From the NCBI GenBank assembly GCA_948440265.1, contig CAOJOK010000002.1, forward strand, positions 1 to 64,000: DNA of 64,000 nucleotides, given 5' to 3'. Position 1 is the first letter of the stretch; the number at the start of each line of letters is the position of its first letter. The notes under the pieces are model-generated. The model did not search any database, was not told the DNA's origin, and worked only from the letters and a program-made list of their open reading frames with translations. Source of the DNA: an uncultured Clostridia bacterium (GTDB lineage: Bacteria; Bacillota; Clostridia; Christensenellales; Pumilibacteraceae). Position numbers and translations under genes: made by a program. Below are positions 32,561 through 35,217 of the stretch, piece after piece.

Positions 32561-33505
32561 CTAAAACATTCGTTTTCTGAACATTATAATCACTACGGGA
32601 ATAAGTACCGCAACCGTTATTCCGACTATGATAAAGAATCCCGCAAGTCCGGGAAGGTCCGCAAACGGCACGGCTACGTTCATTCCCCAAAACGAAGCTA
32701 TAATCGTGGGAATGGTCATACAAATGGTAATTGCCGCCAAAAGTTTCATAACGATATTTTGGTTGTTTCCTATGACCGAAGCGAACGCGTCCATCGTGCC
32801 GCCCATAATATCTCGGTATATAGTCGCCATTTCTATCGCCTGTTTGTTCTCGACTATGACGTCGTCTATTATATCGTTATCGTCCTCGAAGTGTTTAAGC
32901 GTGGACAGGCTTTTCAATCTGTCTATAACTATCTGATTGGAATTCAAAGACGTGGAAAAGTAGACAAGCGCTTTTTCGAGGTCCAGCAGCTGTATCAATT
33001 CCTTATTCTTCATAGAGCGGTGCAAATGCTGCTGCACGCGCGACGAGGTCTTGTCGATTTGTTTGAGATAGCCCAAAAATTTTATTGCATTCACATACAA
33101 AATCTGATATACGAATCTTGTACGCTTATTCAAATCGAAATTTTTGACGCGATGATTGATAAAGTCTCCCAAAACCGCCGTATCGCGCAAACAAACGGTT
33201 ACGAAATAAGAATCGTTGTAAACCATTGCAAGCGGCAATGTGGAATACACATACCAATCTTTATCCCCTGTCATAACCGGTATATCTACGAGAATCAAAG
33301 TGCAGCCGTCGTCGGTTTCGATATGCGCGCGTTCTTCTTCGTCCAGAGCGGCTTTAAGCATATCTTCGGGAATACCCGTAACAGCCGAAGTTTCTTCGAT
33401 TTCCTTATCCGACGGATTTTCCAGGTTTATCCAGCAGCCGTGAACTGCCGTCTGCACCTGTTCGAGCGACCTTTCGCCGCTTTTCATAACGTAAATGTCT
33501 TTCAT
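32561..33505 (-). CDS. corA: CorA family divalent cation transporter
   Basis: A 314-residue CorA-type channel for Mg2+ (or Co2+/Ni2+). A large cytoplasmic N-terminal domain with long helices is followed by two C-terminal membrane helices. The pore signature GMN is present in FWGMNVAVPF, and the protein ends with basic residues after TM2, as usual. The 5' leader is long (about 190 nt or more) and includes a 19-codon upstream reading frame within strong inverted repeats, suggesting control by translation-coupled attenuation. Confidence 0.92.
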   Translation of the reverse strand: MKDIYVMKSGERSLEQVQTAVHGCWINLENPSDKEIEETSAVTGIPEDMLKAALDEEERAHIETDDGCTLILVDIPVMTGDKDWYVYSTLPLAMVYNDSYFVTVCLRDTAVLGDFINHRVKNFDLNKRTRFVYQILYVNAIKFLGYLKQIDKTSSRVQQHLHRSMKNKELIQLLDLEKALVYFSTSLNSNQIVIDRLKSLSTLKHFEDDNDIIDDVIVENKQAIEMATIYRDIMGGTMDAFASVIGNNQNIVMKLLAAITICMTIPTIIASFWGMNVAVPFADLPGLAGFFIIVGITVAVLIPVVIIMFRKRMF

Positions 33506-33700
33506 AATAACTATCCGCGAAACATAAAAAAGGACGTCCTACCCAAAAGAAGCACGCCCCGCGCAAAAACAGCCCTTGAAGTTTTTACAAAACCGTCAAG
33601 GCGGGGCAATCTCTTTTATTTCGTGGACTGTGTCCGTCTTCCATTTTATCGCCCCTCCTTAAAGGAATAGTCGGTAAATCTACCGCTACTATATAATAAC
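33506..33700 (-). promoter_or_regulatory. Structured corA leader (candidate attenuator)
   Basis: Reading 5' to 3' on the minus strand: TATTAT (a possible -10, about 33694), a hairpin with CGGTA/TACCG inside TAGT/ACTA (about 33668-33692), AAGGAGG (33654-33660), the leader reading frame, and a long hairpin whose arms GCCCCGC (33600-33606) and GCGGGGC flank CCTTGA/TCAAGG. Then comes AGGACGTCCT with a T6 run (about 33524-33540), and finally corA. It does not match the M-box Mg2+ riboswitch. Confidence 0.6.
33585..33644 (-). CDS. 19-residue leader peptide upstream of corA
   Basis: ATG at 33644 with the near-perfect AAGGAGGGG 9 nt upstream, ending in TAA at 33585. The peptide is MEDGHSPRNKRDCPALTVL. 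It begins with acidic residues and has prolines at positions 7 and 14, reminiscent of the acidic/Pro-rich start of enterobacterial MgtL, which destabilises ribosomes in low Mg2+. The coding region overlaps the 5' arm of the main leader hairpin, so ribosome position would decide which RNA fold forms. That it is translated is inferred from the ribosome site alone. Confidence 0.6.
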   Translation of the reverse strand: MEDGHSPRNKRDCPALTVL

Positions 33701-33783
33701 ACAAAAATCGGATTTTTGCACCTATATTTACGCTGTTTTTTAATTTTTTTTATTGTATTGTTCTTTTGCGTTTTTGTAAGCGA

Positions 33784-35217
33784 TTACTTGACAAGCAAAT
33801 GAGTAAAATCGTCCACGCACATTAAAGCACGACTGTCTTTCATTCCGCCTATAACGATAACGCTCGCCCCTGCCGAAAGTGCCGATTCTATGCCTGCGGC
33901 GGAATCTTCGAACACCACGCATTTTTTAGGCGATACGCCGAGCCGTTTCATAGCGGCAATATAAATATCGGGCGACGGTTTTTTGGGAAACGGCGCATTG
34001 CCGTCAATCACCGTATCGAATATGTTTTTCATATCTAGCCGCGCTATCATATTTCCTGCCGTTTTCGCAGATGACGCGACGGCAGTCTTGATACACGCGC
34101 CGTTTATGCGTGACGCAAACTCTCGCGCGCCGACTATCATATCGTCGTCATTCACGCCTGCCGCCAAACTCGCAAACTTTGCATCTTTAAGTTCGGCTAT
34201 CTTTGCTTTTTGTTCGTCGGTGAATTTTTCGCCGCGCTTACGCTCGACAGCCGCGATAATGTTCTTCTTGCCAGTGCTTTTAAGCGGCAAATAATCTTTA
34301 TCGGTAAACGTCGCGCCCATTGCGGAAAACGCGTGCTTCCACGCCGCAAAATGGAACTTTTCGGTATCGGCAATCACGCCGTCAAAGTCGAATATGCACG
34401 CGTCAAACGCTTTCGCTTTGCCGTCTGCTTCGATTACATACTCTCCTGCGATACAGTCGCAGATTAACTTATTGAGCCGCGCGCTCGCCGCGACTACGAC
34501 ACCGTTGTCTCCCAATCTGTAAGGCATACCTTTCAGATTGGTCACGACAGCGCCCGCTTCTCTGCAAATGGCTATTCCCGGCGCAATGTCCCACAGGTTT
34601 TTTGTGATGACCACCGTGCCGTGCGTTCTTCTTTGAGCCACAAACGAAAAATCCATACACGCCGCACCGAACATACGAATTTTTGCTATACGCGAATACA
34701 GTTTTTTTATGGCAGTATGCTGAATTTCCGCCGCATTATATTTATTTGCGTGAGGATAGTCTCCGAAACTGACAATGGCATTATTGAATTCCACGTCGGC
34801 ATCGACGGTTATTTTTTTGCCGTTAAAATAACAGCCGTCGCCCTTACCTGCATAGATAGTCTCGCCGAAATGCGGCAAATACACTGCGCCGACAACTATC
34901 TCCCCGTTACTTATCAGCGCACACTGAACGCCGAACAATTTAGAGCCGTTTGCCATATTGCACGTTCCGTCTATCGGGTCCACCGTCCAGGTTCTGCCCT
35001 CTATGCTCTCGTTATACGAAAACTCCTCGCCGTGAATACGGTCTGTCGGAAAGGCTTTATGAATAGCGTCGGTTATATACTTTTCTATTTTTATGTCTAT
35101 ATCCGTAACGAGGTCGAAATTGCTTTTCTGCACGGTATTGAGACTCTCGCCGCCGTACTTATCAAACGCGGCGCGCATAATCACGCTTATAAACTCTATC
35201 TCGTTTTTATATTTCAT
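33784..35217 (-). CDS. Fused inositol-monophosphatase-like and HAD (beta-phosphoglucomutase-like) phosphatase
   Basis: A 477-residue fusion. Residues 1 to about 255 form an IMPase-family domain with its metal sites intact: GEE (63-65), DPIDGT (80-85) and WDIAPG (209-214). Residues about 270-477 form a HAD domain of the beta-phosphoglucomutase type: DFDGVIADT (277-285), SS in AVASSAKT, the Lys of PFPKKPSPD, and VFEDSAAGIESA. Relatives act on sugar, inositol or nucleotide phosphates. The start lies 1 bp after the TIR gene stop, with GGAG inside that gene, so the two are translationally coupled. Both active sites look complete. Confidence 0.87.
   Translation of the reverse strand: MKYKNEIEFISVIMRAAFDKYGGESLNTVQKSNFDLVTDIDIKIEKYITDAIHKAFPTDRIHGEEFSYNESIEGRTWTVDPIDGTCNMANGSKLFGVQCALISNGEIVVGAVYLPHFGETIYAGKGDGCYFNGKKITVDADVEFNNAIVSFGDYPHANKYNAAEIQHTAIKKLYSRIAKIRMFGAACMDFSFVAQRRTHGTVVITKNLWDIAPGIAICREAGAVVTNLKGMPYRLGDNGVVVAASARLNKLICDCIAGEYVIEADGKAKAFDACIFDFDGVIADTEKFHFAAWKHAFSAMGATFTDKDYLPLKSTGKKNIIAAVERKRGEKFTDEQKAKIAELKDAKFASLAAGVNDDDMIVGAREFASRINGACIKTAVASSAKTAGNMIARLDMKNIFDTVIDGNAPFPKKPSPDIYIAAMKRLGVSPKKCVVFEDSAAGIESALSAGASVIVIGGMKDSRALMCVDDFTHLLVK

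Follow-up and report, generated by a model that had tools for sequence, protein, structure and literature searches.

The corA gene of the window (by which we mean the whole stretch of 64,000 nucleotides analysed) is probably controlled by a cis-acting attenuator in which the ribosome senses Mg2+ while translating a short leader peptide; translation, termination and the Mg2+ response are inferred, in the absence of expression data. The parts of this proposed device exist, are conserved, are linked to Mg2+ transporter genes and to M-boxes, and their switching is thermodynamically feasible. With somewhat less assurance, we favour the wider view that leader peptides gauging Mg2+ form a family spread over the class Clostridia, in which ribosome instability serves as sensor for corA and mgtE. 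These leaders would share the spacing of MgtL and would be connected to intrinsic terminators or to different platforms. In several lineages they would follow an M-box and add a further Mg2+ sensor that is independent of it.

All elements of the locus lie on the minus strand. corA (32561..33505, ATG at 33505) encodes a CorA Mg2+ transporter of 314 aa (PF01544, E 1.4e-52) and its start codon is preceded by a weak Shine-Dalgarno (SD) sequence only. A putative promoter is composed of a -35 element GTGCAA (33716..33721), which is a consensus match only, and a -10 element TATTAT (33693..33698), from which consensus scoring infers a transcript start at about 33686. By the same scoring, the place of these elements and their 17-bp spacing are common to the window, to G001 (the only congener compared) and to most loci of the family. 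The SD of the leader, AAGGAGGGG (33652..33660), is followed by the ORF MEDGHSPRNKRDCPALTVL of 19 codons plus stop (33585..33644; ATG at 33644-33642, TAA at 33587-33585), which ends 79 nt upstream of corA, and a T6 tract is found at 33526..33531. The elements listed in the earlier sequence-only reading (SD, ATG, reading frame, stop, T6 and corA) are thus all present. That reading had also described a hairpin formed by GCCCCGC, within the leader frame (33607-33601), and GCGGGGC (33562-33556). The pairing inside the frame stands, but the T6 tract does not follow this hairpin: it is preceded by a competing one, GGGGCGU...ACGUCCU (33560-33531), the GGGGC strand being common to both. The product of the neighbouring gene upstream of corA (33784-35217, minus strand) is a fusion of an inositol-monophosphatase domain with a HAD hydrolase.

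Three segments of the leader RNA can accordingly be named. Region 1 (33601..33618, TAAAAGAGATTGCCCCGC, nt 27-44 of the ORF), delimited by duplex energy against shuffled sequences, would be the 5' arm of an antiterminator. Region 2 (33542..33564) is a shared arm, pairing either with region 1 or, as terminator, with region 3. The predicted intrinsic terminator itself is the stem-loop GGGGCGTGCTTCTTTTGGGTAGGACGTCCT (33531..33560, -12.5 kcal/mol). These folding calculations thus predict base pairing between late codons of the window's leader and the 5' arm of the intrinsic terminator. A further pairing can be drawn between the SD stretch of the leader (33660-33648) and the ORF codons ATTGCCCCGCCTT (33610-33598), with 4 bp, a mismatch and 8 bp; as a third alternative structure, it could restrict renewed initiation at the leader.

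According to the model we propose, transcription would start just upstream of the strong SD and the 19-codon leader ORF. Ribosomes translating the first residues, M-E-D-G-H-S-P, would be prone to dissociate at low Mg2+; the proposed destabilising segment, the acidic start MEDGHSPR (33621..33644), is delimited by comparison with G001 and by the class-wide motif described below. With early loss of the ribosome, region 1 would pair with region 2, and this antiterminator would block the region 2:3 terminator, allowing transcription of corA. When Mg2+ is ample, the ribosome would reach the stop codon and cover region 1, leaving region 2 to pair with region 3 before the T6 tract, and transcription would terminate upstream of corA. 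That the ribosome drops off, that this depends on Mg2+ and that the switch works in this direction are inferences.

The folding of the window is consistent with the alternative structures, as far as predictions go. The 215-nt leader folds at -63.9 kcal/mol against a shuffled mean of -51.3 (z -2.84; 2 of 200 shuffles equally good), and the duplex between regions 1 and 2 reaches -22.8 kcal/mol against a shuffled mean of -15.6, equalled by 1% of shuffles. The corresponding arms of G001 form a duplex of -22.6 kcal/mol (0.5% of shuffles). When only the RNA downstream of the ribosome is folded, the predicted terminator probability in the window rises from 0.06 with a ribosome near codon 5 to 0.88 with a ribosome at the stop codon, and in G001 from 0.00 to 0.83. 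Extended to the 46 loci with a terminator, this downstream-only model gives an increase of more than 0.3 from the early to the stop-codon ribosome in 24 loci and a decrease in none, while shuffled ORFs give 15% up and 0% down. A stricter model masks the ribosome and leaves the RNA behind it free to pair as well. Under it the window does not switch, its terminator being low in every state (0.14, 0.04, 0.12); 21 of the 46 loci still go up and 3 go in the wrong direction by more than 0.3.

The reading frame is kept among relatives. In the Pumilibacteraceae, the family within the Clostridia in which NCBI places the window's genome, CorA was found in 25 of 74 genomes, at 26 loci. At the expected place, 21 of these loci carry a short ORF that is preceded by an SD and opens with acidic residues, such as MEDGHSPR, MEDPGRSK, MEDAGKPSRSK, MDYHSRKK, MDDYPS[KRQ] or MD[SLG]SD[SGD]S. 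Loss of the frame in relatives would have refuted the sequence-only reading; this outcome was not met, and the motif extends to the whole class. G001 shows a single synonymous difference (CAC/CAT) in the first 26 nt of the ORF, the later codons diverging between it and the window. Five family loci are without a normally placed ORF: none was found in L006, L025 and L026, that of L016 is displaced, and L027 is truncated by a contig end. The preceding gene extends into corA in L006, and the promoter lies directly against the SD of corA in L050 and L055, so that absence of the leader is real in these cases. In L016 (genome G052) about 280 nt of extra DNA separate the leader (MDDYHSRRYHNLSAPPISAA, at -428) from corA, which looks like an insertion inside the attenuator. 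In L025 (G005) a tandem repeat stretch of about 100 nt (AATACAACAAATCACGATTACGAAAAGGACG...) occupies the place of the leader upstream of corA.

Comparison of codon conservation with stem changes, which had been suggested as a check, separates the two halves of the ORF: in the early codons the peptide is kept, in the late ones the pairing arms of the RNA. Across five loci from the genus Pumilibacter, 94.5% of cells are paired in the antiterminator and 98.2% in the terminator. Compensatory changes in the shared arm turn U-A into C-G at two antiterminator pairs and A-U into G-C at one terminator pair. An F-to-S change in the late codons accompanies the change in the shared arm, which argues that RNA and not peptide is kept there. 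This covariation is weak, with five sequences only and scores reached by 36 to 67 of 500 shuffles.

Terminator hairpins were detected in 46 of 106 leader loci, and a second set of criteria gave 38 of 106 against 6.7 in shuffles; the other 60 loci have no intrinsic terminator under the criteria used. The antiterminator duplex exceeds 95% of shuffles in only 15 of the 46. Genus g2 appears as an exception: no good antiterminator was found there, the candidates being worse than shuffles (L015 1.0, L018 0.96, L024 0.90). In the same genus (L013-L015, L017-L024), the corA start codon has no recognisable SD, and the predicted -10 element ends just 16-18 nt upstream of the leader start codon. Other lineages keep the peptide start, and some of them appear to use SD-hiding hairpins, not terminators; these hairpins were seen by eye and are uncounted.

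Beyond the family, in the order, the class and the phylum, the peptide takes the general form M-[D/E]-x-[D/E]-P at its start, and x-[S/G] frequently comes next. At 184 non-duplicate corA loci (210 minus 26 duplicates), we searched the 300 nt in front of corA for the strict form, defined as an ORF of no more than 45 codons that has an SD and opens with M[D/E]x?[D/E]P. It occurs at 72 of them on the sense strand and at none on the reverse strand, with 0.15 expected from dinucleotide shuffles, which leads us to reject an ordinary chance ORF. A broader acidic form gave 115 sense and 1 reverse occurrences, with 4.9 expected in shuffles. The strict form is also present at 8 of 29 readable corA loci of a phylum-wide sample, and in the cultured Ruminiclostridium cellobioparum (MDCDPDSS) and Christensenella sp. 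(MDADPKRT), with close variants in Caloramator, Paradesulfitobacterium and Anaerosolibacter. It is missing in family f6 and in most of the listed class loci after L219. The corA loci compared here were taken from top-scoring matches and not at random, favouring close CorA relatives; in the order, 75 further loci were read out of 194 genomes with a match. Moreover, the loci are related and the counts do not represent independent events.

Among 60 distinct ORFs, the Pro5 codon is CCT in 38, CCG in 9, CCC in 7 and CCA in 6, the wobble base of Asp2 varies and codon 3 takes 12 forms. Such variable wobble bases in the early codons point to a constraint on the peptide. In these 60 leaders, AGT encodes 49 of the 62 serines at codons 6-10, while it accounts for 136 of 1397 serine codons in corA genes; this preference possibly reflects a slow codon or an RNA element. 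The peptide of the window departs from the consensus: its proline is at position 7, not 5, and it has only two adjacent acidic residues.

The link with Mg2+ transport does not rest only on searches anchored at corA. A search free of gene context for an SD followed by this start, in 396 genomes of the order, gave 53 places distributed over 47 genomes; corA follows at 28 of these places. A looser pattern applied to 291 genomes of the class matched at 42 places distributed over 39 genomes; corA follows at 16 of them and an MgtE-type gene at 2. Both totals are unique places after our merging of overlapping rows, and reversed-pattern controls gave fewer places than either search. CNNM/CorC-type proteins in which the motif M[D/E]x[D/E]P is read in their own N-terminus were encountered in L249, L268 and L350, the last assigned by sequence alone, without Pfam. 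Since a wider CNNM sample (30 loci, 118 genomes searched) had the motif in 0 of 18 readable N-termini, we treat these three cases as chance or membrane-topology effects.

The M-box (ykoK) riboswitch, RF00380, turns off transcription of the same transporter genes in response to Mg2+. Of 80 corA loci scanned with Rfam, 13 have an M-box upstream (L147, L149, L153, L163, L165, L177, L194, L214, L215, L216, L230, L235 and L237), and in all 13 the interval from the M-box to corA contains a leader ORF that starts with acidic residues. Nine are strict and four are variants (L147, L153, L163, L215); the leaders of L235 and L237, which exceed the 45-codon limit of the script, were read by eye. The order is the M-box with a U-tract-flanked hairpin, then the leader, then corA. 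In 20 additional sources (16 corA loci and 4 others) the sole M-box match is at the mgtE of L262, again followed by a leader. That leaders occur together with an established Mg2+ sensor is the strongest evidence at hand for Mg2+ as their signal, and a stacked M-box and leader would form two putative Mg2+ sensors in series on one transcript. Together with the acid-x-acid-Pro spacing of MgtL across the class, the leaders at M-box loci and before mgtE lend support to the proposal, already made from the sequence-only reading, of a ribosome-sensed control of clostridial corA akin to that by MgtL or CorL, the Mg2+ response being inferred. The window itself is not of the stacked type: in agreement with the sequence-only reading it has no M-box match, either above the gathering score or at E up to 1. 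No other Rfam family was matched there among 4227 models (it is unconfirmed that these include the gammaproteobacterial corA motif), and a known RNA was consequently rejected.

Criteria of the MgtL-type IRD (ribosome-destabilising) class include Mg2+-dependent abortion of translation, counteracted by bL31, and Rho-dependent termination in the leader, in place of which an intrinsic terminator is predicted for the window. On paper the clostridial element resembles leaders of the MgtL/CorL kind; this rests on comparison, and membership among ribosome-destabilising leaders needs a translation assay. The window meets the criteria of a short SD-led ORF upstream of a Mg2+ transporter gene, of early acidic residues with a proline (MEDGHSP, its proline later than in the consensus) and, by prediction only, of mutually exclusive structures overlapping the ORF. 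According to the accessible parts of the cited papers, E. coli MgtL (MEPDP) requires Glu2 and Asp4 of its EPDP motif, the ribosome dissociating at low Mg2+ with induction of mgtA (PMC11282234), and its leader RNA adopts two alternative structures, leader translation lowering expression of the transporter (PMC11552253). The likeness to MgtL, which precedes mgtA in E. coli and Salmonella, lies in the short ORF before a Mg2+ transporter gene, in the two alternative RNA structures and in the acidic residues 2 and 4 and Pro5, which match the clostridial M[D/E]x[D/E]P; the sequences were compared at the first residues only. MgtL is Rho-dependent and controls mgtA, whereas clostridial leaders show intrinsic terminators at many loci and precede corA or mgtE, sometimes behind an M-box.

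The same partial sources describe CorL as an uORF of corA in E. coli and Salmonella with two exclusive structures, its translation being inverse to corA expression (PMC11552253), and assign its RNA to the gammaproteobacterial corA motif (PMC6429828). It shares with our element the position upstream of corA and the exclusive structures, but has a UUG start, depends on Rho and is poorer in proline and acidic residues (PMC11552253). Salmonella MgtQ (mgtC-mgtB; SD AGGAGG) switches alternative stems through ribosome destabilisation dependent on Asp2 and Glu5, to judge from the accessible part of its description (PMC8092293); this is again similar, yet MgtQ is intergenic and acts on mgtB translation. 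In M. tuberculosis pe20, the conserved uORF2 (Rv1805A) follows an M-box, precedes the regulated genes and has a conserved N-terminus with proline, as do small ORFs behind clostridial M-boxes. The available portion of that report describes a mycobacterial peptide of unclear role, on a translational M-box platform with Rho (PMC12810186). Intrinsic terminators in many lineages and stacking with M-boxes distinguish the clostridial element from all these known leaders.

Other explanations of the same leader have to be considered. It could be translated and control corA in response to something other than Mg2+-dependent drop-off, for instance slow decoding at Pro or AGU Ser codons or general translation stress. 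The AGT bias of leader serines speaks of a decoding or RNA constraint beyond acidity, and the leaders of genus g2 (MDSSDSSC) have no proline, which also favours such a signal. We nevertheless judge it unlikely, given that leaders adjoin M-boxes and precede both corA and mgtE, pointing to Mg2+, and that their acid-x-acid-Pro spacing is that of MgtL.

The RNA alone could also be a riboswitch-like sensor of divalent ions, the ORF being incidental or merely setting the kinetics of folding. The strong folding of the leader, and alternative pairings with some compensatory changes, would fit; against this, there is no Rfam match, and a class-wide peptide start with variable wobble bases, followed by lineage-specific RNA, is the opposite of what a riboswitch aptamer would leave, which makes this explanation very improbable. 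We give hardly any more room, and indeed slightly less, to a short ORF without regulatory role, which would only couple corA to leader translation or stabilise its mRNA. Coupling is compatible with the SD of corA being weak or absent in the window and genus g2, but the distance between leader stop and corA in the window is not in its favour, nor are the many loci with a strong corA SD and an intervening intrinsic terminator. An Mg2+ attenuator sensed by the ribosome remains our preferred reading.

Ribosome-destabilising Mg2+ leaders have been characterised in enterobacteria only, as far as the accessible parts of the literature cited here tell (PMC11552253, PMC8092293, PMC11282234), and no description of a clostridial leader of the MgtL/CorL kind was found in the literature searched, from which subscription papers were mostly absent. 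If our interpretation is correct, one peptide signature governs Mg2+ import across Clostridia, dual Mg2+ sensing is predicted on one mRNA, and sensing of Mg2+ via ribosome stability would be ancient or repeatedly invented. Dozens of leaders with one conserved start, on varied platforms and with or without an M-box, constitute a natural series for testing ribosome-destabilising nascent residues.

In the Pumilibacteraceae, ORFs of this type also precede mgtE at 3 of 20 loci examined (L277, L281, L286), the genomes of which gave no match in the CorA search; conversely, the window's genome gave no match for MgtE. In family f1, the two transporters almost exclude each other: no MgtE above the cut-off is present where CorA is matched, and most of the other genomes have one.
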